A DNA stretch of 64,000 bases from Weissella diestrammenae (lineage in GTDB: Bacteria > Bacillota > Bacilli > Lactobacillales > Lactobacillaceae): positions 868,001 to 932,000 of the forward strand of contig NZ_CP060724.1 in NCBI RefSeq assembly GCF_014397255.1, read 5' to 3'. How positions within the stretch are numbered: position 1 is the first letter of the stretch; each line of letters begins with the position of its first letter. The position numbers and the translations under genes are program-made. Positions 35,679-52,717 of the stretch are shown here, piece by piece. The notes beneath the pieces were generated by a model. It had not been told where the DNA came from, did no database searches, and saw only the letters and a list, made by a program, of their open reading frames with translations.

Positions 35679-37631
35679 ATGACTGAAGATCAAAATGCAG
35701 CATTGGGACGCGCGATTTTCGATAATATTGGTGGGCCAGAAAATGTTGAGAAATTAATTCACTGTATGACACGCGTACGTTTAACAATTCGCGATGATTC
35801 AAAAATTGATTTTGATAAATTACGAGCAATACCGGGTGTTTTAGGGGTAGTTGAAGACGAAACGTTACAAGTTGTCGTTGGCCCTGGAAAAGTGAACAAG
35901 GTAGCTCAAAGTATGGTAGATATGGTTGGCGTTAAGCTGGGGGAAGAATTCCCTCAGACGAAAGGGACAACGTCTCTGGTTGATGAAACGGCTCAGAATA
36001 AAGCCGCAGCCAAAGCCAAGTATAATCGACCATCACGCTTTAAAAATGTGCTCAAATCGATTTCAAATATTTTCGTACCAATGATTCCGGCTTTTGTTGG
36101 CGCTGGTATGATTGCAGGTATTGCATCCATTTTGCAAAATATGATGACGGCGGGTCAATTAGATGCTGGTCAATGGACACAAATTATTGCAGTGTTGAAC
36201 ATCATTAAGAATGGTATTTTCAGTTATTTAGCAATTTATACTGGTATCAATGCGGCGACAGAGTTTGGTGCGACTCCCGCTGTTGGTGGCGTCGTTGGTG
36301 CAGTCACATTGCTGACAGGAATGGATCCTGAATTACCACTTAAAAATTTGTTCGATGGGCAGGCCTTATTGTCTGGGCAAGGTGGCATTATTGGTGTCAT
36401 CTTTGCAGTTTGGCTCTTATCCTTGTTGGAAAAAAGACTACATCGGTGGATTCCTGATGCATTGGATATTATCGTCGTACCGACAATTAGTCTTTTGATC
36501 ATTGGCTTAATGACAATCTTTGTGATTATGCCAATTGCGGGTGTTATTTCCACACAATTAGTGGGTGCGATTAATTTTGTCTTGCACGTTGGTGGTGGCT
36601 TCTCAGGCTTTGTGCTTGGCTCGCTCTTTTTACCAATGGTTATGTTTGGATTGCATCAAATTCTCACGCCAATTCATTTGGAAATGATTGAAAAGACGGG
36701 TAGTACCCAATTGTTGCCAATTCTGGCGATGGCGGGCGCGGGACAAGTCGGGGCGGCTTTAGCGTTATGGGTAAAATTACGGCATAATCATTCTGTCGTT
36801 GAAAAGGTGAAAGGGGCATTGCCAGTTGGCATTTTAGGTATTGGTGAGCCATTAATTTACGGTGTGACATTACCAATGGGGCGACCTTTTATTACGGCTT
36901 GTTTAGGCGGTGGTATTGGTGGTGCTATTATTGGTGCTTTGGGCCATGTGGGTGCCATCGCAATTGGACCATCAGGAATTGCGCTCATACCATTGATTGC
37001 TAATGGTAAATGGCTGATTTATGTCTTTGGTTTGCTAGGCGGCTATGCGGGTGGTTTTGTCTTGACCTATTTCTTTGGGATTCCAAAGGAAGAGCTTGCA
37101 TTAGCACAGGCAGCTAAGACCGCACAACAAGAAAAAATTGAACAGAGTACACCAGCATCACCAGTTATAGATAGTGATCAAAATTTTATCTTTGCACCAT
37201 TTAATGGTGAAGCATTACCACTCTCGGCACTTTCAGATGACGTTTTTGCAACTGGCATGATGGGACAAGGCGTCGCATTTGAGCCAGCTGATGGCCAATT
37301 GATGTCTCCAGTGACAGGTGTTGTTGAAACAATTTTCCCGACCCGACATGCGATTGGATTGAAGGCCGATTCAGGTGCTGAAATCTTGCTGCATGTTGGC
37401 ATGGATACTGTTAAGTTAAATGGCGCAGGTTTCACACCGCACGTTATCGAGGGTCAGCGGGTTCAAGTTGGCACATTATTGATGACCGTTGATTTAGATG
37501 CGATTAAGGCAGCCGGGTATCCAACGACAACACCGATGATTATTTTAAATACTAGCGATTACCAAGTCGTAAATGTTATCAAAAATGGGCAAATAATAAC
37601 TGGTGAAGCGGTCTTGGAGTTGGTAAAATAA
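35679..37631 (+). CDS. murP: MurNAc-type PTS transporter, EIIBC fused to EIIA
   Basis: Takes up and phosphorylates N-acetylmuramic acid (inferred from context). 650 residues: EIIB (about 1-85, phospho-cysteine in LIHCMTRVRLTI), EIIC with about ten spans (about 115-455; the GIGEPLIYGVTLPMGRPF segment is typical), and a glucose-type EIIA (about 500-650, phospho-histidine in ILLHVGMDTV and an upstream His in FPTRHAIGLK). Many MurP proteins lack EIIA, so the fusion makes this one self-sufficient. GGAGG lies before the ATG. Confidence 0.88.
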   Translation: MTEDQNAALGRAIFDNIGGPENVEKLIHCMTRVRLTIRDDSKIDFDKLRAIPGVLGVVEDETLQVVVGPGKVNKVAQSMVDMVGVKLGEEFPQTKGTTSLVDETAQNKAAAKAKYNRPSRFKNVLKSISNIFVPMIPAFVGAGMIAGIASILQNMMTAGQLDAGQWTQIIAVLNIIKNGIFSYLAIYTGINAATEFGATPAVGGVVGAVTLLTGMDPELPLKNLFDGQALLSGQGGIIGVIFAVWLLSLLEKRLHRWIPDALDIIVVPTISLLIIGLMTIFVIMPIAGVISTQLVGAINFVLHVGGGFSGFVLGSLFLPMVMFGLHQILTPIHLEMIEKTGSTQLLPILAMAGAGQVGAALALWVKLRHNHSVVEKVKGALPVGILGIGEPLIYGVTLPMGRPFITACLGGGIGGAIIGALGHVGAIAIGPSGIALIPLIANGKWLIYVFGLLGGYAGGFVLTYFFGIPKEELALAQAAKTAQQEKIEQSTPASPVIDSDQNFIFAPFNGEALPLSALSDDVFATGMMGQGVAFEPADGQLMSPVTGVVETIFPTRHAIGLKADSGAEILLHVGMDTVKLNGAGFTPHVIEGQRVQVGTLLMTVDLDAIKAAGYPTTTPMIILNTSDYQVVNVIKNGQIITGEAVLELVK

Positions 37632-37644
37632 AAACAAGCACATT

Positions 37645-37671
37645 AGGCTGGGGGAATCTCAGCCTTTTTAT
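37645..37671 (+). terminator. Short hairpin with T-run between murP and murR
   Basis: GGCTG(GGG) pairs with (TCT)CAGCC followed by five T; probably a partial terminator that lowers murR expression. Confidence 0.55.
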
Positions 37672-37688
37672 AAAATCGGAGGTGGGCG

Positions 37689-38546
37689 ATGGACTCATTA
37701 TTGGCACGTCTAGCAGACGAATCAAATTTCACAAAAGGTGAACAAAAGATTGCCACATATTTAATCAAGAACCATGTTGAGGCACTGAAATTAACGGCTG
37801 AAGAATTAGGAAAAGTTACTGGGACTAGCGGTGCGGCGACGGTTCGTTTTGCAAAGAAAATGGGCTATCGTGGCTTACCTAGTTTAAAATTGGATTTGGC
37901 TTCTGAGATGGCAAGTACCAATTTTGAGGATTTATCTGAGATTACTAAGGGTGAAAGTGTCAATGCCATTTTTGGTAAAATGGGGACCCGATTCAAATTG
38001 ATTCCTGATGCAATTCAACAACGTAATTCTGACGTAACAATTGAACGTGTGATTGATAAAATTGAGTCCGCTGAACGAATTTTTGTGTATGGTATTGCCG
38101 CTTCATCACTGATTGCACAAGACCTCCAACAAAAATTTATGCGTATTGGGTTGTCAGTTATTTTTAATCCGGATTTTCATCAGATGGTGACGACTTTACA
38201 GGCGCTAGGAAAAAAAGGCGACTTAGCAATCAGCATCTCTGAGTCGGGTAAGACCCCTGAAATTTTGCTGTTCCAGAAAATAAGTCAAGAATTGCAATTA
38301 ACAACGGTTGCACTGACCAGTGATAAAAATAGTTCACTGGCTAAACGTTGTGATTTGGCACTCTTTTCATTCTCACAAATTTTTAGTAATGTCCGTTCGG
38401 CATCAACAACGGGACTGGCCTCGCAATTTTTCTTAGTTGATATTTTATTCTATAGTTATTTGAGTCGTAATTTTGATGATGGGATTGCGCATGTATTAAA
38501 CACGCGAAATCGGATTGATGGTGAGTTACGGCATTTGGATAAATAA
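37689..38546 (+). CDS. murR: MurR/RpiR-family transcriptional regulator
   Basis: Local regulator of the MurNAc operon by context. 285 residues: N-terminal RpiR-type helix-turn-helix (ELGKVTGTSGAATVRFAKKMGY, about 38-60) and a C-terminal SIS sugar-phosphate domain (ERIFVYGIAASSLIAQD; AISISESGKTPEIL). It presumably senses MurNAc-6-phosphate, as in the E. coli counterpart. GGAGG before the ATG. Confidence 0.9.
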   Translation: MDSLLARLADESNFTKGEQKIATYLIKNHVEALKLTAEELGKVTGTSGAATVRFAKKMGYRGLPSLKLDLASEMASTNFEDLSEITKGESVNAIFGKMGTRFKLIPDAIQQRNSDVTIERVIDKIESAERIFVYGIAASSLIAQDLQQKFMRIGLSVIFNPDFHQMVTTLQALGKKGDLAISISESGKTPEILLFQKISQELQLTTVALTSDKNSSLAKRCDLALFSFSQIFSNVRSASTTGLASQFFLVDILFYSYLSRNFDDGIAHVLNTRNRIDGELRHLDK

Positions 38547-38571
38547 TTGAACGAGTTAGGTGGTCATTAAA

Positions 38572-39231
38572 ATGAAACATAATAAACCAGCTGGTAAACG
38601 TATTGTTGGCGCACTTCTAATCTTGGTTGCCATTGGCATTGCATTGGTGAACACTGGTGTGTGGCACGTTACTTTTGTATTGCCGATTTGGCAATATGTT
38701 TTGATGGCAGTCTTAATGTTTATTGCTCTGAGCGGGTTAGTTAAAGGGCAGTGGTTCGTCTTTTGGATACCATTAGCAATGTTAATGACAATTCATCAAA
38801 ACTTACTCAATGTGTGGCTACATCTCTCGTTGAATTCGGGATTGATCTGGGGCGTAGCCATTTTGTTGGCATTCGGGTGTACTTTATTATTTGCACAAGC
38901 ATATGGCGAAAAATCAGAAGTGGCAACGACCTTTGATAATCATTCGATTGAATTGACAGTTGATGAGATTAAAGGGCAAACTTTGCGTACAAAATTTGGT
39001 GACTTGACCGTCACCATTCAGCCAGGCATCGCTGCGTCGCCGGTTACGTTGAATTTAGATGTTCGATTTGGAGGCTTAGTGCTCCATGTACCAAAAGACT
39101 GGGAAGTGACTGATGCAACATCACATTCATTTTCACAGGTAAAAATAATGAATCAACAGCTTGAATCAAAGCAAGTCTTACGGTTAACCGGTCAGGTTGC
39201 ATTTGGTGAGGTTAAAGTCTGGCATCAATAA
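38572..39231 (+). CDS. LiaF-like membrane protein
   Basis: 219 residues: about four spans in the first ~115 residues and a cytoplasmic beta-rich domain with two FGD/FGE-type repeats (TKFGDLTVTI, VRFGGLVLHVP, VAFGEVKVW), the pattern of the LiaF C-terminal domain. LiaF keeps the LiaSR cell-envelope stress system off, but no liaS/liaR is next to this gene. Its start codon is ATG 38572 after TTAGGTGG (GTG 38560 is the alternative). It follows murR by 25 nt, so it may be co-transcribed. Confidence 0.7.
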   Translation: MKHNKPAGKRIVGALLILVAIGIALVNTGVWHVTFVLPIWQYVLMAVLMFIALSGLVKGQWFVFWIPLAMLMTIHQNLLNVWLHLSLNSGLIWGVAILLAFGCTLLFAQAYGEKSEVATTFDNHSIELTVDEIKGQTLRTKFGDLTVTIQPGIAASPVTLNLDVRFGGLVLHVPKDWEVTDATSHSFSQVKIMNQQLESKQVLRLTGQVAFGEVKVWHQ

Positions 39232-39265
39232 AATGAATTCTTTCTTGAATTTAACGCTAAAATCA

Positions 39266-39392
39266 TTGACGGCACGGCAAAAAAAAGGTAAGATAATCAT
39301 CGGTATTGTTTACCACGCCACATGTGGGAATGTCCTGGTACGACTTTTTATTATTGGTAAAGTAAACAAACAGAATATTGGAGGAAATTTCC
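39266..39392 (+). promoter_or_regulatory. Promoter and structured leader of rplM-rpsI
   Basis: TTGACG, 16 nt, TAAGAT opens a leader of about 95 nt. The leader (39300-39375) has complementary blocks such as GTTTACCA with TGGTAAAGTAAAC (one bulge). An autoregulatory L13 leader is known in Firmicutes; whether this matches that Rfam family needs a covariance search. Confidence 0.5.
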
Positions 39393-39836
39393 ATGCGTAC
39401 AACTTATATGGCAAAGCCAGGTGAGATCGAGCGTAAGTGGTACATCGTTGACGCAACTGACGTACCTTTGGGTCGTTTGTCAACGGTCGTAGCAACAATC
39501 TTGCGTGGTAAGAACAAGCCTACATTTACCCCTCATATCGACACTGGTGATAACGTTATCGTTATCAACGCAGCCAATGTTGCATTGACTGGTAAGAAGG
39601 CAACTGACAAGATCTATTATCACCATTCAAATCACCCAGGTGGTTTGAAAGAGCGCAAAGCCGGTGACCTTCGTGAAAAGAACCCTCAACGTTTGATTGA
39701 GCTTTCTGTTCAAGGAATGTTGCCAAAGGGTACTCTTGGTCGCCAACAAGGTTTGAAGCTTCACGTATTTGCTGATGCAAATCACAATCACGAAGCACAA
39801 AAGCCTGAAGTGTTGGATATCACTAACCTAATCTAA
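39393..39836 (+). CDS. rplM: 50S ribosomal protein L13
   Basis: 147 residues, normal length, starting [20 protein letters not shown] with conserved DVPLGRLST and [16 protein letters not shown] is 8 nt before ATG 39393; the TTG at 39378 overlaps that ribosome site and is not the start. First gene of rplM-rpsI. Confidence 0.98.
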
Positions 39837-39861
39837 TTAGCAGAAAGGAGAAATAAGTATT

Positions 39862-40254
39862 ATGGCTACTGTACAATATTACGGAACTGGTCGTCGTAAA
39901 AACTCTGTTGCGCGTGTACGTTTAGTACCTGGTAACGGTGCAATTACTATCAACGGCAAGTCTGCTGAAGACTATATTCCTTTCGCTAATTTGCGTGAGG
40001 TTATGATTCAACCATTTAACGCTACTGAAACTCTAGGAAACTATGATGTATTGGTTAACGTTAACGGTGGTGGCTTCTCAGGACAATCAGGTGCGATCCG
40101 TCACGGTATCTCACGTGCATTGTTAGAAGTTGATCCTGAATTCCGTGGTGCATTGAAGTCAGCAGGATTGTTGACTCGTGACTCACGTATGAAGGAACGT
40201 AAGAAGCCTGGTTTGAAGAAAGCCCGTAAAGCTTCACAATTCTCAAAGCGTTAA
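39862..40254 (+). CDS. rpsI: 30S ribosomal protein S9
   Basis: 130 residues with [19 protein letters not shown] at the N-terminus and the basic decoding-site tail [19 protein letters not shown] precedes the ATG. The 3' end marks the left edge of the AT-rich island. Confidence 0.98.
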
Positions 40255-40277
40255 TCTTATTAACCAATTTGAGTTGG

Positions 40278-40312
40278 AAAAGCCAGACACAGAAATGTGT
40301 CTGGCTTTTTTA
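40278..40312 (+). terminator. Terminator of rplM-rpsI
   Basis: AAAAGCCAGACAC pairs with GTGTCTGGCTTTT, then TTTATT. Confidence 0.95.
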
Positions 40313-40350
40313 TTATGTTGGCGTATTACTTGAAATTAGCGCTCAGAACG

Positions 40351-40379
40351 TTGTTGAATGCATGTTATTTATATATAAT
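40351..40379 (+). promoter_or_regulatory. Promoter of the sigma-helicase island
   Basis: TTGTTG, 17 nt, TATAAT, giving a leader of about 105 nt before the sigma gene. Confidence 0.6.
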
Positions 40380-40409
40380 ATGTATTGGTAACTCACAAGT
40401 AGTTTGATG

Positions 40410-40454
40410 TATGACGATTTTGTATTAGATGTACGATAATTAAAAATCGTCATA
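40410..40454 (+). repeat. Perfect 12-bp inverted repeat in the leader of the sigma gene
   Basis: TATGACGATTTT (40410-40421) and AAAATCGTCATA (40443-40454) are perfect complements around a 21-nt loop. It lies between the promoter and the ribosome site. It could be an operator for a dimeric regulator, an RNA hairpin, or both. No T-run follows, so it is not a plain terminator. Confidence 0.8.
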
Positions 40455-40492
40455 GAATTGAACTTCATTTTTTCGATTGGGGGATGATTTTC

Positions 40493-41850
40493 ATGGAACA
40501 TGGGGCTAGTGATAGATTAAAGGAGATTATTTGGTATATGAATGGTGAATTGATATACGGGACATCAATTCACCAGAGTAAAATCAATCAATTCATTGAA
40601 AAACTGGAGTATCGATACTATGGTATATTGACGGTTTATAAGGAAATAGATGAACTAAATTTAAGCGTTGTAAAAGACGAAGAGCCCGTTTTAGGTAAAT
40701 TATGGAAGAAAGAAGAATACGATTGGAAAAGAAATTTGCAGATTATAATTGATGGATTTGTGGATGATTTTTCAGTAAAAGATTTATATTATTTCTCCTT
40801 CGATTTAGGGTACGCTCATCCTTTAAACCAAAATGTGAAAGCTAAAATAAGGCAAATTTTACAACAGCTAAGAGATGAAAATTTCATTGTATCAAAATCG
40901 TCTAGTGTATATGCTAAAAAAAGTAAGGTAATTGAAGATGTCAACTCCATGAAAACTAAAACAGCTGAAATTGATGACGAATATGATTTAGATAAACTAA
41001 TAAATTCCAGTAAATTTATAAAAGAGCTATCAAACATTAAGGAAGAACCAAATTTTGAGCTTAATAAGCAGTACATTTCTAGTTATCAAGAAAATGAAGA
41101 TGATATTCAAGCACTAGAGAATGTATATTTAGCAAATCAGAAACTAGTTTGGAAAATAGCGAAGCAGTATTCATATTTAAAATCTCCAGGGCTTAGTATC
41201 GATGATATGTTTATGGAAGGAATTTTGGGGCTAAAAAAGCAATAGATAAATTTGATGTTGGCATGGGTTATGAATTTTCTACATATGCTACTTGGTGGAT
41301 TAGGCAGTCAATTAAAAGAGCTATCGCTGATAAAAGTAGTGTTGTTCGTTTGCCAGTTCATATGCATGAAAAAATAAACAAACTAATTCAAATTAAAAAT
41401 AAATTTCAAAGTGATTTAGGTAGAGAAATAACTGCAGAAGAACTTTCAGCTGAAATGAATAGTGATTACGAAACAATTCATAAGTTGTTAGAGATTAATA
41501 ATAAATTTGGGAAAAATTTAGTTTCATTAGAAACACCAGTGGGAACTGATAATATAGGTGGGTATCTAGGGGATCTCATCTCTGATTCAGAAAGTGAAAC
41601 AGCTTTTGAAATTGTAGCTAATGAGGAACGACTTCTTATATTGAAAAAATTAATGAATAATATATTAAATGAAAGAGAACGAGAAATAATATATCTTAGA
41701 TTCGGATTTTCTGACAATAGAGTGGAAACCTTAGAAGAAGTGGGAAAACATTTTGGAGTTACGCGTGAAAGAATAAGACAAATTGAAGCTAAAGCATTAA
41801 TAAAATTAAAGCGTTCAAAGCAAATTAAAAGTTTTCAAGCTTGGCAATAA
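40493..41850 (+). CDS. Sigma-70-like factor with N-terminal winged-helix extension; requires -1 frameshift
   Basis: If joined, 452 residues. Residues ~90-142 read FSVKDLYYF...[23 protein letters not shown], which resembles the winged helix of Dam-replacing/DpnI-C proteins. From ~205 on there is a full sigma-70: region 2.1-2.4 ([12 protein letters not shown] ... [21 protein letters not shown]), region 3 ([13 protein letters not shown]), and region 4 ([14 protein letters not shown] ... [18 protein letters not shown]). Zero frame stops at TAG 41243-41245; frame -1 resumes with A-I-D-K-F-D exactly at the slippery site 41233-41239. Start ATG 40493 follows GGGGGAT. Sequence is AT-rich compared with neighbours. 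It is either recoded or recently inactivated. Confidence 0.8.
41233..41239 (+). other. Candidate -1 ribosomal frameshift site A_AAA_AAG
   Basis: The zero frame reads CTA AAA AAG CAA TAG, so the heptamer is in the correct phase. A -1 slip continues GCA ATA GAT AAA, restoring sigma region 2. AAGGA lies 11 nt upstream (41217-41221), similar to the stimulator of E. coli dnaX. I see no strong downstream stem by eye. Loss of one A from a run of seven would produce the same sequence. Confidence 0.5.
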
Positions 41851-41860
41851 TCAAAAATAA

Positions 41861-44800
41861 ATGCGATATTTCAAAAAATTTGGGAGTAGTATAAATATTA
41901 AAAATCGTGTGAGTGAATTAATTTCAAAAAATGAATTACAGCGTCCATTAATTATAACAATAGGCTTTGATGAAATTGAGATGGATAATTATTTGATTAG
42001 TCCAATTGACAATAAATTAGATCTAATAAATCTTGACGATGTAAAGAAAAGCATACCTTCTCAATTTATGGAAAGTGTGGCGCGTAATTTACCATTCTAT
42101 ATTATACGTCCTGAGGAAATGAGTATATTAGTTGAAGTGATGGATATAGATACATTCTATCGGGATGATATCATCATATTACGAAATAACTTATTTGACA
42201 AAACGTTTACATATAAAAATACGCTGAGTGATATTTCAAAAGCTTTTGAAATGCTCTATCTTAGTGAGGACTCTGAATTACAAGGAAATGAGAGGGTACG
42301 GATTGAAAGAATAAACACTTTCTACGGGAAAGTTAATTTTTCAAAAAAAAGTGGTAATTATTTTGTGACTTATAGTGAAGACCTATGGGGTAAATACAAA
42401 AATTATGACTATTATGAGATTCGAGAGTCAAGTAATCCAGAATTAGTAGATGAAGTAGTAGCGGATATCACTATACCCTTGGATGAAGAAGAGATTTTAT
42501 TTCTAGATTTTGTGAGTGAAAATAATCTGAATAATTCAGTGAATTTTATTATTGATAGTTTTGAACAGATGCCACATAGATATACAGAAAGAATTCAAGT
42601 ATTAAAAAAACTGCATCCAAACTTAAATATTACTTTTTCTACACCGTCAATAAAAAGGCAGAGTATTGACAAACTCGAGGACTATCGTAAAATCTTGGAG
42701 AATGTTTGGGGATATTCTAAATTTAGGGAGTTAGATATGTATTCCCATATTGAAAAAAGAGATAAGAATTTATTAAAAATTTCTCAGGCACAAATCATAG
42801 ATGACATAGTTCAACAAGTTGAAAACGCTAGAGATGGGCAATCGTATAGAGATATATATATAACTGCATCGACTGGTGCTGGAAAGTCTGTGATGTTTCA
42901 GGTGCCAACGTTATATCTAACTGAAAAATACAAAGACGATAAACCGTTAATCTTAGTTATTTCTCCATTAATTGGATTAATGAATGATCAAGTCGATAGC
43001 ATGAAACGAAAAGGTGTCGATAACGCTGAAACAATTAATGGTAATACGCCGCCATATGAAAAACAATCTATATTACAGCGAATCAATGATGGAAAAGTTG
43101 ATATGTTGTACCTATCACCAGAGACATTACAAGCTAGAGGCGATATAAAAATGTTGATTGGTAGTAGGAAAATTGGAATGGTTATTGTCGATGAAGCTCA
43201 TATTGTAACCACTTGGGGTAAATCCTTTAGAGCGGACTACTGGTATCTAGGAATATATCTGCAGAAGTTACGAAAAGAATATCAATTTCCGATAATAACG
43301 TTCACGGCCACTGCTATTTATGGTGGGCGTGAGGATATGTATATGGATACCAGAAATAGTCTAAACATGATTAGACCAATAGCTTATTTCGGTCTAGTTC
43401 GAAGAAACGACATCGAGATGAAGATTCGTTCCTCTAATAAATTTGAAGAAGGAAGGGAAAAAGATTATCGTAAAACGAAGAATTTGTTAGCTTTTAAGCA
43501 TCTTGAAGATGCATATAGGCAGAAACAGAAGTCTTTAATATATTTTCCTACTATTAAATTGTTGAATAATTTTTATTCATTTTTAGAAGAAAATGCTAAA
43601 TATATAGTTGATGTCAGTGGAAAATATTATGGATCTTTGACAAAAGAAGAGAAAGATACTGTTTTAGAAGGGTATAAAAATGGTGACATTCAATTTGTGA
43701 TGGCAACAAAAGCGTTTGGGATGGGAATTGACATTCCTGACATAACAAATGTATATCATTTCAATCCAACAGGAAATGTTGTTGATTATGTTCAAGAAAT
43801 TGGGCGAGTTGCACGGAATCACAAGTTAGTTGGTAAGGGCTATGGAATTCTTGATTATTTGCCTCAAGATTTTAATGCTGTGCAACAATTGCAAGGTATG
43901 AGTAAAATCAAAAAAAATCAAATTCAAGGCGTTATGCAAAAGATATTAGATATATATAGAAATAAGGGATATAACCGTAACTTAGTGGTAAGTGCCGACG
44001 ATTTTAAATATATATTTTCTGAAAATATTGATGATGATAGCGGTAGTTTAGATAATAAAGTAAAAACTATTCTATTAATGATTGAAAAAGATTTCTCATC
44101 TAGTAAAAAATTAGGATACTCACCATTTGTTGCACGTCCACGAAGTATTTTTGGGAATGAATTAATAATAGTTTCAAAAGATGTGGAGAGTAAATTGAAT
44201 AACTCATCTTTAAAGCATTATTTCGAATTTTTGACCTCGATTTCTGGTGGAGATTATTCATCAGTTATTTCGGTAAATCTTTCAGGAATATGGGAAAAGC
44301 ATTATAAAACAATGTCATTTCCAGAATTTAAATACCGGCTGAATACTCCCGAAGAACGCGATAAGATGCAACATGCAAAAATTTTCGGATTATTTAATTT
44401 TGCTAGCGGCGTCCAATACTCTTTTGATAATGAAAATGGAACTAGGTTATCGAAATATAAGGAAATACTTGAGTCCTATCAAATTTTTCTTGATGAAATG
44501 CAACGTCAGAATAAGCAATTTGAAGTGAAAGACTTAGGTAAGTTTATAAAGAATTCATTACACATTAGTGATGGATTTGAAGCACGTAGTATGGCACAAG
44601 TTTTGATAAACGCCACATTTGAGTTTCAAAAGTTAAAGGATATCAAAGTCCTTCGTGAACGTGAAGCAACGGAGAAGACATTATTTTCTGTTGTTAGGTC
44701 TGCGGATACCTTTGCAGAATTCGTTTCGTTAGTAGCAGGTAAATTGTATAATCCTAAATATAATTTTGTTAAAGATGAAAATGCCATGAATATCTTTCAT

Positions 44801-45169
44801 TATCGGAATTCGCAGAATTTGGATGAAGAAACAATAGTTTTGGGCATTGGCGAAGCCTTTGGACTAGGTAATTTCACGACCTTGGGAGGATATAACCCTC
44901 AAATATATATTCGTATCAACTCAGTTTATCCGGTAGAACAAGCAATTAAACAAGATCAGAATTATCGGAATTTGATATTGGAAGATGTTGTTTTTAAGCA
45001 CCGAATAGGTGTCGCAATGCAAAAATACCTTTTCACGCATAAAGAAAATGGAATGAATGCACAAGAAAAAATTACAAATTATACAAAATGGTTTTGGGAC
45101 AAAATAGAGGATTATTTTATGGGACGATTACCCTCTGAAGTCGAAGAAAGTCTTTTTTCCAAAAAATAA
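41861..45169 (+). CDS. Large RecQ-like DEAH helicase
   Basis: 1102 residues. The SF2 helicase core is at ~330-660: Walker A TASTGAGKS (335-343), Ia VISPLIGLMNDQ, II DEAH (444-447), III FTATA (481-485), and VI QEIGRVARNHK (645-655). The ~330-residue N-terminal and ~430-residue C-terminal regions match nothing I recognise; the RecQ-Ct zinc cysteines and HRDC domain are not seen, and I notice no cysteine at all. It starts 10 nt after the sigma stop with no clear ribosome site, suggesting coupling to sigma translation. It is probably the effector or processor of a two-gene module; a defence role is inference only. Confidence 0.88.
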   Translation: MRYFKKFGSSINIKNRVSELISKNELQRPLIITIGFDEIEMDNYLISPIDNKLDLINLDDVKKSIPSQFMESVARNLPFYIIRPEEMSILVEVMDIDTFYRDDIIILRNNLFDKTFTYKNTLSDISKAFEMLYLSEDSELQGNERVRIERINTFYGKVNFSKKSGNYFVTYSEDLWGKYKNYDYYEIRESSNPELVDEVVADITIPLDEEEILFLDFVSENNLNNSVNFIIDSFEQMPHRYTERIQVLKKLHPNLNITFSTPSIKRQSIDKLEDYRKILENVWGYSKFRELDMYSHIEKRDKNLLKISQAQIIDDIVQQVENARDGQSYRDIYITASTGAGKSVMFQVPTLYLTEKYKDDKPLILVISPLIGLMNDQVDSMKRKGVDNAETINGNTPPYEKQSILQRINDGKVDMLYLSPETLQARGDIKMLIGSRKIGMVIVDEAHIVTTWGKSFRADYWYLGIYLQKLRKEYQFPIITFTATAIYGGREDMYMDTRNSLNMIRPIAYFGLVRRNDIEMKIRSSNKFEEGREKDYRKTKNLLAFKHLEDAYRQKQKSLIYFPTIKLLNNFYSFLEENAKYIVDVSGKYYGSLTKEEKDTVLEGYKNGDIQFVMATKAFGMGIDIPDITNVYHFNPTGNVVDYVQEIGRVARNHKLVGKGYGILDYLPQDFNAVQQLQGMSKIKKNQIQGVMQKILDIYRNKGYNRNLVVSADDFKYIFSENIDDDSGSLDNKVKTILLMIEKDFSSSKKLGYSPFVARPRSIFGNELIIVSKDVESKLNNSSLKHYFEFLTSISGGDYSSVISVNLSGIWEKHYKTMSFPEFKYRLNTPEERDKMQHAKIFGLFNFASGVQYSFDNENGTRLSKYKEILESYQIFLDEMQRQNKQFEVKDLGKFIKNSLHISDGFEARSMAQVLINATFEFQKLKDIKVLREREATEKTLFSVVRSADTFAEFVSLVAGKLYNPKYNFVKDENAMNIFHYRNSQNLDEETIVLGIGEAFGLGNFTTLGGYNPQIYIRINSVYPVEQAIKQDQNYRNLILEDVVFKHRIGVAMQKYLFTHKENGMNAQEKITNYTKWFWDKIEDYFMGRLPSEVEESLFSKK

Positions 45170-45353
45170 GTATGAAAAAAACTATATCTATTTTTAAAGA
45201 TTAGAGATATATGGTCAAGTTGATTTTTTTGGTCGATAGTACTAGAATTTTGTTTTATATAAGTGGAGAGTGAGACATATAAGTTAGTTAATATCAAGCA
45301 AGTAAAAAGACTATTTTATTATATTTAAAATAAATACCGAGGGAGTTTAATGA

Positions 45354-46106
45354 ATGTCACGCATAGATGATTTAGGGGCGAAAGTTAAATCTTTGTCCAG
45401 TAAAACAGGTCAAATTTCTGAAGAGACAATGTCACAAGCGCTTGATTGGGCATATGACAAAACGCTGAATGGAATTCCTGGTCAAAAAAGTATCGATGAT
45501 TTAATTGATGATTATTTGTCAAAATATGATAAAGAAACGGCAATTGATAAACTTATTAGTTATCAAACAACTAAGGCCGCGGTTTCGGGATTTGTCACTG
45601 GGTTTGGTGGTGTGATTACCATGCCAGTTACGATTCCAGCTAATATAACAACAGTTATTTTGTTTCAAATGCGCATGATTGCAGCGATTGCAAAAATTCG
45701 AGGCTATAATTTAAACAGTGATCAGGTACAGACCTTTGTTTATGCAACTTTGGCTGGTACATCAGTGGCAGATATGATGAAAAAGTCAGGTATCGTTATT
45801 GGTAATAAACTGGCAATTAATGTTGTTAAAAAAATACCAGGTAAAACCTTAACCAAAATTAACCAGGCAGTTGGGTTCCGATTAGCGACAAAATTTGGAA
45901 CCAAGGGAGTTGTCAATCTAGGGAAAATGGTACCAGTCTTGGGGGCCGGTATTGGAGGTGTTTTCGATATGACAACGACGCGAACAATTGCGAAGTATGC
46001 CAAACAAACATTTACTGAATCAGGTATTGATTTGGGCGATGGTACAATTATTAGTCAAGGGGAAAATGATATGATTACCTTAAACCCCACAATCGACGAA
46101 GCATAA
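45354..46106 (+). CDS. EcsC-family protein
   Basis: 250 residues of the EcsC family (function unknown; ecsC lies in the B. subtilis ABC transporter operon ecsAB). Typical features are the hydrophobic Gly-rich centre FVTGFGGVITMPVTIPANI, followed by FQMRMIAAIAKIRGY and a second Gly-rich hydrophobic stretch VPVLGAGIGGVFDM. GAGGGAG precedes the ATG. Not next to ecsAB here. Base composition returns to that of the host, so it marks the right side of the island. Confidence 0.8.
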   Translation: MSRIDDLGAKVKSLSSKTGQISEETMSQALDWAYDKTLNGIPGQKSIDDLIDDYLSKYDKETAIDKLISYQTTKAAVSGFVTGFGGVITMPVTIPANITTVILFQMRMIAAIAKIRGYNLNSDQVQTFVYATLAGTSVADMMKKSGIVIGNKLAINVVKKIPGKTLTKINQAVGFRLATKFGTKGVVNLGKMVPVLGAGIGGVFDMTTTRTIAKYAKQTFTESGIDLGDGTIISQGENDMITLNPTIDEA

Positions 46107-46112
46107 TATCAT

Positions 46113-46147
46113 AAAAAACAGTTTTCCAAATGGAGGACTGTTTTTTA
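46113..46147 (+). terminator. Terminator after ecsC-like gene
   Basis: AAAAAACAGT-TTCC pairs with GGAGG-ACTGTTTTTT; T-run on the plus strand. Confidence 0.85.
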
Positions 46148-46227
46148 TCTGGAATAAGCATAGAATGGATATGTAAACGTAATTGTTTTAATATAAAAAA
46201 TATAGAAGTCACGAAGGAGGATTCATG

Positions 46228-46872
46228 ATGAGAATTTTAATTATTGGTGCTAGCGGACGCGTTGGACGGCTGTTAAGTCAAGTTTTGATGGCACAGGGAC
46301 ATGAAGTAATTGGAACAGTGCATGCGGCACACGCTGAACAAAATGGGATGCAGACTGTTTCCCTCGATTTAGCAACGGCTTCGGTAGCAGAGATGGTAGC
46401 AACTATTAAAGCACTTGGTCCAATCGATGTCGTGTACTTTGTGTCAGGGTCACGAGGAAAACAGCTCCTTAAGGTCGATTTAAATGGTGCGGTTAAAGTC
46501 ATGCAATCCCTTGAAATAGTGGGAACAAAACGTTACATTCAGTTAAGTTCTGCTTTTGCTGATCGCCAGGAGAAATGGTCAGAAGGCTATTTATCTGACT
46601 TGACAGATTATAATATCGCAAAGTTTTTTGCTGATAAATGGCTTCAAGAGAATACGTATTTAGACTATACGATTCTTCAGCCAGGTATTTTGGTTGATGC
46701 AGAAACGGTTGAATCCGTTCAATTCAATCCAGAACACGCCGGTAAAAATAATATTGGGACGGTGGCACACGTATTAGCAGCACTTGCCATGCACAAACAA
46801 ACAATCGGCCAAACAATTGTCATGTCATCAGGAGCGATGACAATTGAAGCAGCAATCAACAATCTCCGTTAG
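46228..46872 (+). CDS. NAD(P)-binding SDR-like protein
   Basis: About 214 residues of the atypical SDR/NAD(P)-binding type. The N-terminal loop is IIGASGRVGRLL, with LSSAFADR at the usual serine position and YNIAKFFADKWL carrying the Tyr-x-x-x-Lys. It resembles YwnB/NmrA-like proteins. Substrate unknown. ATG 46228 is 7 nt after AAGGAGG; the ATG one codon earlier is the alternative. Confidence 0.82.
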   Translation: MRILIIGASGRVGRLLSQVLMAQGHEVIGTVHAAHAEQNGMQTVSLDLATASVAEMVATIKALGPIDVVYFVSGSRGKQLLKVDLNGAVKVMQSLEIVGTKRYIQLSSAFADRQEKWSEGYLSDLTDYNIAKFFADKWLQENTYLDYTILQPGILVDAETVESVQFNPEHAGKNNIGTVAHVLAALAMHKQTIGQTIVMSSGAMTIEAAINNLR

Positions 46873-46901
46873 GCCTTCGATAATCAGCATAATAACAACA
46901 G

Positions 46902-46932
46902 GCGGGTACGTATCATGTACCCGCTTTTTTTA
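46902..46932 (+). terminator. Terminator after SDR gene
   Basis: GCGGGTAC(G) pairs with GTACCCGC, then seven T. Confidence 0.9.
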
Positions 46933-47105
46933 TGTCATTATGCTGCATGTGGCGTCATTTAAGTGGAGCCAATAAATTAAGAAAAAAATGAATTTTTAAA
47001 ATGGGGCACAATCATTTATGGACATTTCTGACATATGAAAGGTAGGTTTCTGACGGCCTATCTGGAAAGACTTGCGAAACCGGTTAAGCATGCTAGACTT
47101 ACAAA

Positions 47106-47119
47106 TGTAAGCGCTTACT
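47106..47119 (+). promoter_or_regulatory. Catabolite-responsive element (cre)
   Basis: TGTAAGCGCTTACT matches the CcpA consensus at 13 of 14 positions and lies 57 nt before the symporter gene, so the locus should be glucose-repressed. Confidence 0.8.
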
Positions 47120-47175
47120 TTTTAAAAAGGTTTATTATGACATGAATTTAAATAGATTTTTGGAAGGACAGTATG

Positions 47176-48576
47176 ATGGAAAAAAATCAGGTGAAATGGC
47201 CTGAAAGGCTCGCCTATGCGATGTCTGATTTCGGGTGTAATACCATTTTTCAAATAGTTGGGACTTATTTTCTAGTCTTTAGTACTGATACGATGGGAAT
47301 CAAGGCTTCTGTTGTGGCTGGATTGTTTGCAGTGACAGCGATTATTGATTCAGTCGACGGTGTGATTTGGGGACAGTTTATTGACCGTACACACACTAAA
47401 TGGGGGAAGTCACGACCTTACTGGCTCTGGTTTTCGATTCCATTTGCCCTATTTTGTATTATGTCGTTTTCGGCACCTAATCTACCGGGGCCATGGAAGG
47501 TTGTCTGGATTTACGTGGCATATATCGGTGCGAAAGTACTTTACTCAGGTATTAATATTCCAGTCACATCAATTTTGCCTGCGTTAACTTCAGATCCTCA
47601 AGAACGAGTAACACTTTCGACGGTTCGTCAATTTTTCGGTAATTTTGGCGCTGCAATATTTTTGCCACTGACATTACCAGCAGTTGCATTCTTTGGACAA
47701 TTATTTGGTGCAACCGGGAAAAATGCATCGACGTCAGCCATTGGATGGTTCATTTGGGCCGTTATTCTGGGCATTATTACCGTGATTTGTTTACTCACCG
47801 CATTTGCTGGGACTCGAGAACGCGTTGTAACAAAAGATTCAACGCGTTCAGTACCAATGCGTGAGTCAGTTCGAGCATTAAAAGGTAATTATCCGTGGGT
47901 GATTATTATTTTCATCAACTTTATTTACTGGGGTGGTTTCGCAGTCAGATCAAGTTCACTGCCGTATTACTTTAAATACGTTTTGCATAATGAAGGACTA
48001 GGTAGTTTGGTGCTTGCTGGGACTGTTATTACGCTCTTCTCAACCGCTTTAGTTCCGTTTATTTCACGGCATATTGGTAAGCGAAATACAATGTTAGTAG
48101 GAATGGTTGGTACAGCGATTTCACAGTTGATCTTATACCTGGCTGACAAAATGAATGGTAATGTACCCATTATTTTAGTAGGTATTGTCTTGTACTTTAT
48201 TAGTTATGGGTTAACAGGTGCTTTGATAGCGGTGATGTTGTCAGATGCAGTTGACTTTGGTGAATGGAAAAATGGCGTTCGAGCAGAAGGCTTTGTCACG
48301 TCATTTAGTTCATTTAGTGCCAAATTAGGTATGGGCTTAGGTGGTATGGTCTTATCAGCTGTTCTTGCTCATGGTGGATACATTGCTGCTACAGCCGGAC
48401 ATACAGTTGTTCAATCTGATGCTGCACTGAATGCGATTCGAATCGGATTTATCTGGATTCCTCTTTTTGGGTATGTTGCATCATGTGTCGCACTACTCTT
48501 TAACAACGTTGATAAATTAGAACCACAAATGGTACGTGACTTACGTGCCAAACATGCGGCAGAAATTAATGACTAA
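47176..48576 (+). CDS. GPH-family sugar:cation symporter (xyloside/isoprimeverose type)
   Basis: About 466 residues with 12 spans, of the glycoside-pentoside-hexuronide family. Marks are YAMSDFGCN at the start, DSVDGVIWGQFIDRTHTKWGKSRPYWLW, and SDAVDFGEWKNGVRAEGF near the end. XylP imports isoprimeverose in lactobacilli; pairing with an alpha-xylosidase here supports an alpha-xyloside substrate, by inference. GGAAGGA before the start; ATG 47173 is equally in frame. Confidence 0.85.
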   Translation: MEKNQVKWPERLAYAMSDFGCNTIFQIVGTYFLVFSTDTMGIKASVVAGLFAVTAIIDSVDGVIWGQFIDRTHTKWGKSRPYWLWFSIPFALFCIMSFSAPNLPGPWKVVWIYVAYIGAKVLYSGINIPVTSILPALTSDPQERVTLSTVRQFFGNFGAAIFLPLTLPAVAFFGQLFGATGKNASTSAIGWFIWAVILGIITVICLLTAFAGTRERVVTKDSTRSVPMRESVRALKGNYPWVIIIFINFIYWGGFAVRSSSLPYYFKYVLHNEGLGSLVLAGTVITLFSTALVPFISRHIGKRNTMLVGMVGTAISQLILYLADKMNGNVPIILVGIVLYFISYGLTGALIAVMLSDAVDFGEWKNGVRAEGFVTSFSSFSAKLGMGLGGMVLSAVLAHGGYIAATAGHTVVQSDAALNAIRIGFIWIPLFGYVASCVALLFNNVDKLEPQMVRDLRAKHAAEIND

Positions 48577-48592
48577 TTGAAAGGATGAACTT

Positions 48593-50737
48593 ATGAAATT
48601 TACAAATGGTTACTGGCTGGCTAAGGATGAATATTTAATTAATTCCCCTTTAGAAGCATATGATGCGCAGACAATTGCTGCTGATGAGAGCGATTATGTT
48701 AGTGAAACCCTCGAAGTGAGTGCAAGTTATCAGCGGATAAATTCACGGAGTGATATGTTAGATGTTGGTAACAGTACTATCTCAATTTTTTCACCCGCTG
48801 AAGATATTATTGGAATTAATTTAAAACATTTCGATCAAGATGATCACAACCCACTATATGAATTAACGACTGAAAGCGTCACGCCTTTGATTGAACAGAC
48901 GGATGAGTATGTTTCGTTTCAGAGTGGGCAACTCACGGCAAGAATTAAAATACATGACCGATTTAATTTAGACTTCTTATACCGTGGACAACGAATTACT
49001 GGCTCTGAATATCAAGCACAAGGGTCCATTGATGATTTGTCAAACCAGGTATTAGGGCGAGTGATGCATCCAAATACCGTGACTGGTGCGCAAGCAATGG
49101 CACCGTCTGGCACGATTCAGCGTGCGGATCATTATATGCGCGAACAGTTGAGCTTATTGCCAGGCACCAAGGTATATGGGTTTGGTGAATCATTTGGTGC
49201 CTTCGTGAAAAATGGTCAAAGTATTGATATTATTAATCGAGACGGTGGGACTGGTTCAGACCAAAGCTATAAGTCAATTCCATTTTATTTGGCCGCTAAG
49301 ACTGGTATCTCAAAGGATGAACAAACAGGCCTGTATTATGGCGTTTTCGTGAATGAAAGTCAACCAACAAGTTTTGAAGTTGCCAGTGAAGTTGTTGACC
49401 GAGTCAGTTTTTCAACATTGGGTGAACAACTGGAATATTATGTCATTGCTGGCGAATCGCCCAAAGCTGTGATTGGAAAATATAATCGTTTAACTGGCGG
49501 GTCAGCTTTGCCACCGGAATGGACCTTTGGACTATGGTTATCGACCTCATTTACGACCGATTATTCTGAAAAAACGGTGATGAAGTTTATCGATGGCATG
49601 TTTGAACGTGACATCCCATTATCAGTTTTCCATTTTGACTGTTTCTGGATGAAGGGTTTTGAATGGAGTAATTTTGAATGGGATAAGGCTCAATTCCCAG
49701 ATCCAGAAGGTTTGATTCAACGGTTGCACGATCGGGGATTAAAGGTGTGTGTTTGGATTAATCCGTATGTGTCACAAAAATCACCGCTCTTTAAAGTTGG
49801 GAAAGCCCATAATTACTTTATAAAACGTCAAGATGGTAATGTTTGGCAATGGGATTTGTGGCAGCCAGGAAATGCAATTGTTGATTTTACAAATCCTGAA
49901 GCAGTTGCCTGGTATCAAGGGTTATTGAAGCGGCTCCTCGATATGGGCGTGGATTGTTTTAAGACTGATTTTGGAGAACGTATTCCAATGCACGATGCGG
50001 TTTACTATAATGGAAATAACCCAGCTGGAGAACATAATTTCTATACACATCGATATAATGAAGCAGTCTTTGAGCTTCTTAAGGCTGAAAAAGGGGCAGA
50101 CGACGCAGTAGTCTTTGCACGGTCGGCGACTGTTGGTGGTCAACAATATCCAGTCCATTGGGGTGGGGATAATTTAAGTCAGTTCCATTCAATGGCTGAC
50201 AGCTTGCGTGGCGGACTGAGCTTGATGTCTTCTGGCTTTACTTTTTGGAGTCATGATATTGGCGGCTTTGAAGAAAATGCAAGTCCTGCTATCTATAAAC
50301 GCTGGACCCAATTTGGCCTATTATCAAGTCACTCCCGTTATCACGGTAACATTGAATATCGGGTACCTTGGCTCTTTGACGAAGAAGCAGTCGAAGTGAC
50401 CCGAAAGTTTGCTAAGCTCAAGCAAAACCTCATGCCATATATATATGAGGAAGCAAAAGTATCTGTATCTGCAGGTATTCCATTGATGAGGCCGATGTAT
50501 ATGGAATTTCCAGATGATCCAAATTGTGCTGATTTAGACCGACAATATATGTTTGGCTCAGATATTTTAGTTGCCCCAATTATGTCTGAAACAGGAGATG
50601 TCGATTATTATTTGCCAGAAGGTCATTGGGAACATGTGCTTGATCAACGACAGGTGACGGTTGATCATCGTGGTCAATGGTTAAATGAAAACTATGATTA
50701 TCTGAGTCTACCGGTTTGGCGCCGGATAAACAAATAA
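48593..50737 (+). CDS. GH31 alpha-xylosidase (YicI type)
   Basis: 714 residues. N-terminal beta-sandwich (to ~250), then the (beta/alpha)8 barrel with nucleophile Asp in KTDFGERIP, acid/base Asp in HWGGDNLSQF, and FWSHDIGGF. The KTDFGE form, in place of the alpha-glucosidase WxDMNE, points to alpha-xylosidase. Releases xylose from isoprimeverose or xyloglucan fragments. 16 nt after the symporter, same operon; GAAAGGATG before ATG. Confidence 0.88.
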   Translation: MKFTNGYWLAKDEYLINSPLEAYDAQTIAADESDYVSETLEVSASYQRINSRSDMLDVGNSTISIFSPAEDIIGINLKHFDQDDHNPLYELTTESVTPLIEQTDEYVSFQSGQLTARIKIHDRFNLDFLYRGQRITGSEYQAQGSIDDLSNQVLGRVMHPNTVTGAQAMAPSGTIQRADHYMREQLSLLPGTKVYGFGESFGAFVKNGQSIDIINRDGGTGSDQSYKSIPFYLAAKTGISKDEQTGLYYGVFVNESQPTSFEVASEVVDRVSFSTLGEQLEYYVIAGESPKAVIGKYNRLTGGSALPPEWTFGLWLSTSFTTDYSEKTVMKFIDGMFERDIPLSVFHFDCFWMKGFEWSNFEWDKAQFPDPEGLIQRLHDRGLKVCVWINPYVSQKSPLFKVGKAHNYFIKRQDGNVWQWDLWQPGNAIVDFTNPEAVAWYQGLLKRLLDMGVDCFKTDFGERIPMHDAVYYNGNNPAGEHNFYTHRYNEAVFELLKAEKGADDAVVFARSATVGGQQYPVHWGGDNLSQFHSMADSLRGGLSLMSSGFTFWSHDIGGFEENASPAIYKRWTQFGLLSSHSRYHGNIEYRVPWLFDEEAVEVTRKFAKLKQNLMPYIYEEAKVSVSAGIPLMRPMYMEFPDDPNCADLDRQYMFGSDILVAPIMSETGDVDYYLPEGHWEHVLDQRQVTVDHRGQWLNENYDYLSLPVWRRINK

Positions 50738-50760: not shown

Positions 50761-51594
50761 ATGCGTGAAATTGATGATGGACAGTATGAAATCGTCACGG
50801 ATAATCAAGATGTTGAAGTTAAAATCTACTTGTCCGATGAGCCGGCTGGATACGTACCATTGCATTGGCATCGACATTTAGAAATTGTGCTTGTTTTATC
50901 GGGGGAAGTGACATTTGAGTATGAACAACATCAAACAAACTTAACGTCTGATGAATTCATAATTTTAGGTTCTGGTATCTTACACCGTTCAGAGAACACT
51001 GCTAATCAATCAATCGTGATTCAAATTCCAATTTCTTTTTTGTCACGATATTGTATAAATCCAGAACTGGTCCAATTTGATCAGATGAAAATCAAACAAT
51101 GTCAGCACACCGCAGCCTATGCTGATATCGTGACGTCGATTCATACGATGTATCGGATATATGTTGAAAAAGATAGCTGCTATCAATTACAATTTGCTGA
51201 ATATTTAATGCGTTGTTTGTACACAATGCTGAAAAATTTTACGCAACCGCAGTTGGCAATTGAAGAAACTGATGATCAACGGCTAAAAACGTTATTGGGT
51301 TATATCAATCAACATTATGTTGATAAACTCAATGTCCATGATTTAGCGCTTCAATATCATTATCATCCTGATTATCTCAGTCGCTACTTTAAGAAAAAAA
51401 CGGGCATTGCTTTAAATCGCTATATTTATTTAGTGCGATTGGCATATGTGCATCGTGAGATAATTCATACTGAAAAACATATACATCAAATCTTTTTAGA
51501 AAATGGCATTACCAATATTCGACTTGGTACACGCTTATTCGAGCAATATTATGGCCAGTCACCACATCAAATTCGCAAGTTTCATCAGAAATAG
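50761..51594 (+). CDS. AraC-family regulator (first)
   Basis: 277 residues: N-terminal cupin (LHWHRHLEIVLVLSGEVTFEY, about 30-50) that should bind a sugar ligand, and a C-terminal pair of AraC helix-turn-helices (LNVHDLALQYHYHPDYLSRYFKKKTG). The second HTH is less typical. ATG 50761 follows GTGGAGATGG; an upstream TTG (50716) would overlap the xylosidase gene and is rejected. Likely activator of the upstream operon. Confidence 0.88.
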   Translation: MREIDDGQYEIVTDNQDVEVKIYLSDEPAGYVPLHWHRHLEIVLVLSGEVTFEYEQHQTNLTSDEFIILGSGILHRSENTANQSIVIQIPISFLSRYCINPELVQFDQMKIKQCQHTAAYADIVTSIHTMYRIYVEKDSCYQLQFAEYLMRCLYTMLKNFTQPQLAIEETDDQRLKTLLGYINQHYVDKLNVHDLALQYHYHPDYLSRYFKKKTGIALNRYIYLVRLAYVHREIIHTEKHIHQIFLENGITNIRLGTRLFEQYYGQSPHQIRKFHQK

Positions 51595-51700
51595 GCTTTT
51601 AACCAAAAGAGAAATATTTTGGTTTTTTATTGAACTTAACCATTATAAGTAATTAAATTGATATGTAATTGTATTAGATATAACTTGATGTTACACTGAA

Positions 51701-51714
51701 TGAAAGCGTTTCCG
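51701..51714 (+). promoter_or_regulatory. cre-like site upstream of second AraC gene
   Basis: TGAAAGCGTTTCCG resembles the CcpA consensus except at the last two positions; 35 nt before the start. Confidence 0.55.
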
Positions 51715-51748
51715 CAGAAATAAATATGAGAGTGTGAGTATTTAGCCG

Positions 51749-52645
51749 ATGATAACTGATTTTCAACTTAATCTAGATGAAGAAAAAGAGCCAAATTATT
51801 TACCGGTTTTAAATACACATTTCACTTTGTTTGGTGGGCATCAAGAAGAAGTCTTGCCGGGTTGGCAATGGAAAACAGAGGCACATCCGGCCTTTGAATT
51901 GATATATATTTTGTCCGGTCAACAAAAAACAGTCACAGAAACACAAGAAATGATTGTGCATGCAGGTGAATTTATATTGATTCCAATTGGCGAGTATCAT
52001 ACAAATTCGGTCTATGGTGATGAGCCATGCTCGTACTTTTCAATGCACTTTAATATGGATGATTTATCGATTAAATACTTATTGTCAGAAAGTTATGGAC
52101 ATCGCATTATTGGACCGCAATGGCAACAGTATCCAAGAGTGATGAAACAGCTAAAGATGATTGTTTCAATGATTAAACCTGAATATGGTTTGGCAGACCG
52201 ACTAAATCTACAAATGGCAGTGATTCACTTGATTCTGATTTTGGTGAAAGCCACCCAAGATGAAACCAACTATATCGGGAAATTAAAAGAATTGGACCAC
52301 TATATGTTGGCTCAGCAATTATCGGTTGCCATTAAAGAAAAGGTCGACCGAGAAACCTATCATCAAAAAACCGAACAAGTTATTTCAATCAGTGAAATCA
52401 TCAATCAATTTCATATTAGTCAAAGCCAAGCTTTAAAACTGTTCAAGAAGTTCTTTCAGAAGACACCACAAGCGTATTTGATTGAGCTCAAAATGACACA
52501 GGCCAAGCAATTATTACTACAGCCTAATATGTCAATTCGAGCAGTTTCAGAGAAATTAGGATACTCTTCGCCTAGTCATTTTTCACGAGAATTCAACAAA
52601 CAATTTCAATTGTCACCACGCGATTATGTGAAAAAATGTAATTAG
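51749..52645 (+). CDS. AraC-family regulator (second)
   Basis: 298 residues: cupin region (HPAFELIYILSGQQKTVTE, HAGEFILIPIGEYH) and a C-terminal double HTH (SISEIINQFHISQSQALKLFKKFFQKTP; MSIRAVSEKLGYSSPSHFSREFNKQF). It is divergent in sequence from the first AraC gene, so it probably senses a different sugar and controls the GH43-GH5 operon that follows. Weak ribosome site. Confidence 0.88.
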   Translation: MITDFQLNLDEEKEPNYLPVLNTHFTLFGGHQEEVLPGWQWKTEAHPAFELIYILSGQQKTVTETQEMIVHAGEFILIPIGEYHTNSVYGDEPCSYFSMHFNMDDLSIKYLLSESYGHRIIGPQWQQYPRVMKQLKMIVSMIKPEYGLADRLNLQMAVIHLILILVKATQDETNYIGKLKELDHYMLAQQLSVAIKEKVDRETYHQKTEQVISISEIINQFHISQSQALKLFKKFFQKTPQAYLIELKMTQAKQLLLQPNMSIRAVSEKLGYSSPSHFSREFNKQFQLSPRDYVKKCN

Positions 52646-52717
52646 TCATACGAATTAGGGGCATTTCTATCCGAATTGTCCTATTTTTTTTATTTTAAAT
52701 CAATCTATAATCATATT

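Follow-up and report, generated by a model that had tools for sequence, protein, structure and literature searches.

A sigma-70 gene and a gene for a RecQ-like helicase stand side by side behind the ribosomal protein gene rpsI of Weissella diestrammenae, and the locus raises the question of whether the two belong together and, if so, what such a pair is for. The window in which they lie is a stretch of 64,000 nucleotides (bases 868001–932000 of the single contig, 1.66 Mb, of the source genome), and a preliminary description drawn from its letters had suggested a possible undescribed system with a part in defence. Relatives of the helicase were collected from a scan of GTDB contigs, from genome surveys of Lactobacillaceae, Bacilli and Bacillota, and from a plasmid search. 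The preliminary description had proposed counting how often homologues co-occur as neighbours, and they do so with great regularity: outside the window, 30 helicase relatives have a sigma-70 gene directly adjacent, which is 30 of the 34 non-viral long relatives (Lactobacillaceae 7/7, Bacilli 10/11, Bacillota 5/8, further named genomes 6/6, further plasmids 2/2). These long helicases are 36–68% identical in the aligned set. Given the handful of sigma genes in each genome, we infer that this adjacency cannot be chance. The two partners also co-diverge, the distances among sigma factors correlating with those among helicases (Mantel r 0.77, matched in 0 of 2000 permutations). The helicase is rare, being present in about 2–3% of Bacillota genomes (counts of 12/398 and 17/398 genomes, the latter taking in more distant helicases), and this sparse distribution includes plasmid-borne pairs, for example between insertion sequence (IS) elements on L. 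plantarum plasmids. We read the pair, with a probability of roughly 0.6, as an accessory two-gene module of defence islands in which the SigA-type sigma factor is the regulatory or DNA-reading subunit and the RecQ-like helicase is the effector.

The arrangement of the two genes varies while the partnership persists. In the commonest layout the sigma gene lies upstream on the same strand, with the genes overlapping or almost touching. Five loci are divergent (L081/L082, L084, L090 and L091, with 50–85 bp between the genes, and L083, whose starts are unclear), and at one locus (L095) a broken helicase gene is followed by the sigma gene. In the tree, the full-length helicases whose sigma gene is upstream make up one side of a supported branch (100/98), and several changes of orientation are required, with the pairing kept throughout. 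Divergent layouts favour a relation of regulator and target, and co-directional overlap favours a complex; neither settles the matter. No sigma gene adjoins seven distant or truncated relatives, namely the non-viral L096–L098 and L099 (the last at a contig end) and three on viral contigs (L104–L106). In L084 and L090 the divergent genes share an AT-rich intergenic stretch of 66–83 bp with a common GATAAATTAATA-type core, and the sigma and helicase promoters must therefore overlap there.

The genomic context of the pairs shows an association with defence genes; a defence function, like any mechanism, is our inference. The flanks of 14 pairs (121 open reading frames, ORFs) were compared with 137 control ORFs taken at arbitrary places in the same genomes: at 1e-20 the flanking ORFs match 259 PADLOC models and the controls 5, figures that are not gene counts because the models are redundant. 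Proximity to known defence genes, another check that had been proposed for the pair, is thus borne out by an unpicked comparison; the neighbours named here were chosen by eye. The pairs are enriched near modification-based defence, with type I restriction-modification genes beside them in L075, L085, L086 and plasmid L041 (HsdR, HsdM), type II methylases in L084 and L089, and type III in L090. BREX genes adjoin the pair in L078 (BrxC and PglX) and L092 (BrxC), Wadjet JetABC in L080, PbeA in L094, and HNH or type IV-like nucleases in L076 and L083. Pairs also stand alone, in an IS-flanked plasmid region, in Erysipelothrix, in Enterococcus and in the source window, and for this reason the pair is no obligatory part of any single neighbouring system.

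This setting would also suit a pair that does not itself block phage, with the sigma factor keeping or switching on the transcription of neighbouring defence operons, for example when phage proteins disable the host SigA, and the helicase remodelling RNA polymerase or DNA. Consistent with such a role, BREX or type I genes come after the pair, on its own strand and at 0.05–1 kb, in L078, L085, L086 and L092, and in L041 the pair follows HsdR by 36 bp; SigA-like promoter residues fit a SigA substitute, and the common 50–85 bp intergenic promoter region of the divergent loci is typical of a regulator and its target. The stand-alone pairs argue against it, however, as does the helicase, which is more strongly conserved than the sigma factor and lacks an obvious part in regulation, and we consider a pure regulator of the island unlikely. 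The plasmid copies, which adjoin IS elements, recombinases and mobilisation genes, bring to mind a pair that serves the replication, transfer or transcription of plasmids or integrative elements and merely hitch-hikes into islands. Many chromosomal copies, though, have no visible mobility genes, and the very large enrichment of defence models relative to same-genome controls tells against such upkeep of mobile elements, which we regard as distinctly improbable.

In a defence module of sigma factor and helicase, the sigma factor would associate with the RNA polymerase core. Together with the DNA-binding module at its N-terminus, which in one subclade is a DpnI-type winged helix, it would direct polymerase or helicase to certain DNA or promoters at the time of invasion, after which the helicase would unwind or disrupt the invading DNA or its transcription. 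Read across a frameshift that is described below, the sigma protein of the window matches the Pfam domains for sigma-70 regions 2, 3 and 4 (r2, r3 and r4), as do its homologues. Its determinants for RNA polymerase and promoters are intact: the residues of regions 2.4 and 4.2, which read the −10 and −35 elements, and the core-binding regions match those of the genome's own SigA, and on this likeness the protein is expected to join core RNA polymerase and to recognise promoters of the SigA type. A private regulon with a promoter consensus of its own was also considered, and is unlikely because the recognition residues are SigA-like. The protein is not itself classed as a primary sigma factor, since its C-terminal half scores 198 bits against a cut-off of 354 for the rpoD equivalog TIGR02393, and the source genome has a separate SigA. 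Its first 60–70 residues align with region 1.1 of that SigA, and AlphaFold gives a confident small fold for this part in a homologue; in L009 the region 1.1 match is weak (BLAST, 28.6% over 49 aa), Pfam r1_1 has no match in the N-terminus, and region 1.2 is not recognisable in the protein.

Following the region 1.1-like stretch is the extra N-terminal domain of which the preliminary description had spoken, and it can be identified as a DpnI_C winged helix (PF17726, residues 79–144). The match has an E-value of 5e-12 in the window, 1.8e-22 in the sigma factor of Pediococcus stilesii and 2.4e-18 in that of L. plantarum, with scores of 79.7 bits in L003 and 66.5 bits in L040 against a Pfam gathering cut-off of 23, and the L075 (G118) protein has a weaker version. 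PF17726 occurs in 3 of 397 Lactobacillaceae genomes, each time within this sigma factor. The winged helix of DpnI is itself specific for Gm6ATC, and its K229 and R231 matter for DNA binding (PMC4117772); aligned to PDB 4esj, with the correspondence counted by hand, these are K121 and R123 of the sigma factor, and the equivalents are kept in the window, P. stilesii and L. plantarum proteins. The module thus belongs to the same domain family as the C-terminal winged helix of R.DpnI (PDB 4esj, 4kyw), which there follows a PD-(D/E)XK nuclease, whereas here it is fused to a sigma factor without a nuclease. AlphaFold models the winged helix of the sigma homologue poorly (pLDDT about 40), and its model was not used for that part.

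Such a domain raises the idea, an unlikely one, that the sigma factor of this subclade reads Gm6ATC, the Dam-type methylation, on foreign DNA in hosts that have no Dam-like methylase, and steers RNA polymerase and the RecQ-like helicase to destroy or silence it. If so, this would be a defence whose targeting device is the transcription machinery, and the fusion of a DpnI-type reader to a sigma factor would offer an uncommon way, open to direct test, of distinguishing self from foreign DNA by methylation. A search found no MethyltransfD12 (Dam-like) methylase in the source genome, and all three reader-bearing genomes (G000, G230 and G118) are without the family. The family is also absent from 13 of the 17 other pair-bearing genomes searched. 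Because most of these lack it too, its absence is compatible with Gm6ATC as a foreign mark and says nothing stronger; a link between the reader and a missing Dam-type methylase was therefore set aside as non-discriminating.

The sigma-70 gene, which had been taken to be complete, is split. A single-base frameshift at 41233–41245 divides it into two ORFs in different frames, the first stopping within region 2, and the source genome has no one intact reading frame for the protein. A −1 slip at A_AAA_AAG (41233–41239) is the sole shift that restores it, giving a 455-residue sigma factor with an unbroken region 2. The intact relatives examined, down to about 40% identity, read through the corresponding position with no shift. 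The simplest account is the loss of 1 nt in the A-run, real or by sequencing error. With the frame broken by one base, the copy in the source genome is thus either inactive or low in full-length sigma factor, unless a sequencing error is to blame or slippage at the heptamer bypasses the break. Alternatively, the heptamer might yield by design both a short protein (region 1.1 and winged helix) and the full-length sigma factor: its phase is the right one, a shift of −1 there yields a flawless sigma region 2, and both halves of the gene are otherwise intact. The in-frame relatives speak against this, as does the downstream RNA, which is less structured than shuffles (z = +2.0) and offers no stimulatory fold. 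Dropping one A from CTA AAA AAA GCA, moreover, automatically produces the heptamer, which is therefore not independent evidence of programming. These three points rule out programmed frameshifting as the default explanation, and we consider it most improbable.

The helicase gene is as first described, an ORF for 1102 aa (41861–45169), separated by a 10-nt gap from the sigma stop codon, which ends at 41850. The protein has a superfamily 2 (SF2) core with the aromatic-rich loop of RecQ, between N- and C-terminal regions (residues 1–260 and 700–1102) that are conserved across the family. Like bacterial RecQ, BLM, WRN and RECQL5 it has DEAD and Helicase_C domains and the loop (WGKSFRADYW), and its best structural match is the RecQ core. 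Unlike them, it falls below the cut-offs of recQ_fam (TIGR00614; 174 versus 219.8 bits) and recQ (184.6 versus 640.2 bits), has no Pfam match to RQC, zinc-binding or HRDC domains at E ≤ 1, and carries some 260 N-terminal and 400 C-terminal residues of its own. No known fold was recognised in residues 1–260, a result that is uninformative as this region was never folded by itself. The sole library model to span the helicase is PADLOC C3a193, 'possible alternative Cas3' (PDLC01089; residues 81–1089, 447 bits). The protein nevertheless lacks the HD nuclease domain of Cas3, the label is silent on the sigma partner, and no Cas proteins were found by eye among the ORFs of 36000–50000. The core also resembles PsyrT and DpdF of the PsyrTA and Dpd systems (1e-49 and 4e-57); here, however, the similarity is confined to the core (residues 332–695 for PsyrT), PsyrA and the other Dpd proteins are absent, and the partner is a sigma factor.

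This resemblance to PsyrT, a RecQ-like defence toxin, fits a further possibility, namely that the helicase is toxic and is restrained by the sigma factor, perhaps a decoy for SigA-attacking phage proteins, until infection releases it. Persistent adjacency and coupled or overlapping genes are in keeping with such a guard or toxin-antitoxin pair, and the region 1.1-like segment and SigA-like surfaces would suit a decoy. The divergent and downstream layouts (five loci and one locus) are nonetheless unusual for toxin-antitoxin pairs, and in the source genome the helicase ORF is intact despite the broken sigma gene, a combination at odds with a strict antitoxin role unless the sigma factor is made by slippage. 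On balance we find a toxic helicase held by its sigma factor improbable, and favour the sigma factor as a regulatory or DNA-reading subunit of a defence module.

Several observations weigh against the reading we favour. The defence genes beside the pairs may reflect co-residence in islands and not a common function. The more distant helicases L096–L098 and the viral L104–L106 have no sigma gene, so that the helicase can act without one. The promoter-contact residues equal those of SigA, which leaves the added value of a second sigma factor unexplained; the DpnI-type reader is recognised only in a small subclade (the window, L003, L040 and L075), and the sigma gene is frameshifted in the source genome itself.

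The nearest precedent is mzaA, a sigma factor gene of the validated anti-phage system mzaABCDE (PMC9523054). MzaA (NCBIfam NF041931) is likewise a sigma-70 family protein with an N-terminal extension from a defence locus, and the C-terminal sigma half of the window protein aligns with its model at 182 bits. This score is, however, far under the 800-bit cut-off and weaker than the RpoD match of the same protein (214.6 bits), no MzaB–MzaE are found among the window neighbours, and no helicase pairing has been described for MzaA. A full-text literature search, with subscription journals and preprints mostly outside its coverage, returned no description of a sigma–helicase pair. NCBIfam (June 2026) has no specific model or equivalog that either protein matches above cut-off and, for the helicase, which could have proved to be a known defence or replication protein, nothing was found described beyond the PADLOC label. 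With no NCBIfam model and a label of 'possible alternative Cas3', standard defence annotation would probably miss or misname the pair. The pair probably represents a defence module that has gone undescribed. A sigma factor that is bound to a helicase partner throughout Bacillota and located in defence islands would tie transcription initiation directly to anti-phage immunity, a link for which there has so far been only a loose association (mzaA).

In the source genome the rpsI stop codon ends at 40254, and the sigma-70, helicase and EcsC-family genes occupy the next 5.9 kb (Table 1). Alignment with nine sister genomes of the genus breaks at 40254–40262, directly after rpsI. That the pair is more AT-rich than the ribosomal and host genes around it, as noted at the outset, holds on measurement: GC content is 0.301 in the sigma gene and 0.319 in the helicase gene, against 0.435 in rpsI and 0.424 in the gene following the EcsC gene, which is itself at 0.38; both flanks of the 5.9-kb stretch are at 0.42–0.44. 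Within the genus the EcsC gene is limited to 2 of the 28 genomes, and for this reason the whole stretch looks acquired. The EcsC gene is a possible member of the sigma–helicase module. A gene for an EcsC-family protein 50% identical to that of the window also lies near a sigma–helicase pair in L005. GATC occurs 6 times in the island where 16–18 are expected, a depletion modestly beyond that of the rest of the window.

Table 1. Features of the sigma–helicase locus and its borders, in window coordinates.
Feature	Position	Strand	Remarks
Intrinsic terminator of the rplM–rpsI operon	40275..40312	+	17-pair stem and T tail; strong; left boundary of the island
Perfect inverted repeat TATGACGATTTT / AAAATCGTCATA	40410..40454	.	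12-bp arms, 21-nt loop
Sigma-70 gene, 5' part (253 aa)	40484..41245	+	holds the region 1.1-like segment, the DpnI-type winged helix and the beginning of region 2; cut off by the frameshift
DpnI_C winged helix (PF17726) in sigma	40718..40915	+	residues 79–144; 46.2 bits against cut-off 23; E 5e-12
A_AAA_AAG run	41233..41239	+	−1 shift here rejoins the two sigma frames; probably a deletion of 1 nt, an error of sequencing or a site of slippage
Sigma-70 gene, 3' part (−1 frame)	41239..41850	+	remainder of region 2, which recognises −10, then regions 3 and 4, the latter recognising −35
RecQ-like SF2 helicase (1102 aa)	41861..45169	+	core at about residues 305–700; 1–260 and 700–1102 of unknown family
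EcsC-family protein (PADLOC candidate PDC-S29, 283 bits)	45354..46106	+	accessory neighbour, 185 bp past the helicase

The strongest inverted repeat of the leader (40275–40312) is the terminator behind rpsI, which suggests that the sigma and helicase genes are a separate transcription unit. A promoter of their own, as claimed earlier, does not stand out: TATAAT at 40374–40379 has no good −35 element, and the region holds 30 promoter-like matches against 31.8 in shuffles. The perfect inverted repeat reported in the leader is real, being equalled in 1 of 300 shuffles, and may serve the pair as an operator. Relatives lack it, and the idea of a conserved operator was dropped. A search for known RNA elements found none.

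Some further observations concern genes beside the pairs. In L085 (12230–13834) and L086 (4902–6485), from two different genera, a protein of 527–534 aa with an N6_Mtase fragment and half an HsdS domain is encoded between the helicase and the HsdM of a type I system, of which it resembles a component that is split or has a regulatory role. An HNH endonuclease gene, with a type IV-like or EVE-like N-terminus by eye, adjoins the pair in two lineages (L076, L077 and L083; L042, 4329–5162) and may be an optional third component. Helicase genes of a GIY-YIG/Schlafen-group-3 type (L006, 4555–6330) and an AAA/Schlafen-like type (L003, 5412–6884) also adjoin pairs and are possible defence genes. The helicase relative of L104 (7209–10391), which has no sigma partner, is found on a viral contig between phage tail genes and next to an ADP-ribosylglycohydrolase-like gene (by eye), as if it were a phage cargo gene. 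Elsewhere in the window, a second AT-rich stretch with near-zero GC skew (50900–52700) contains two adjacent AraC-family regulators, recognised by eye, beside glycoside hydrolase genes.

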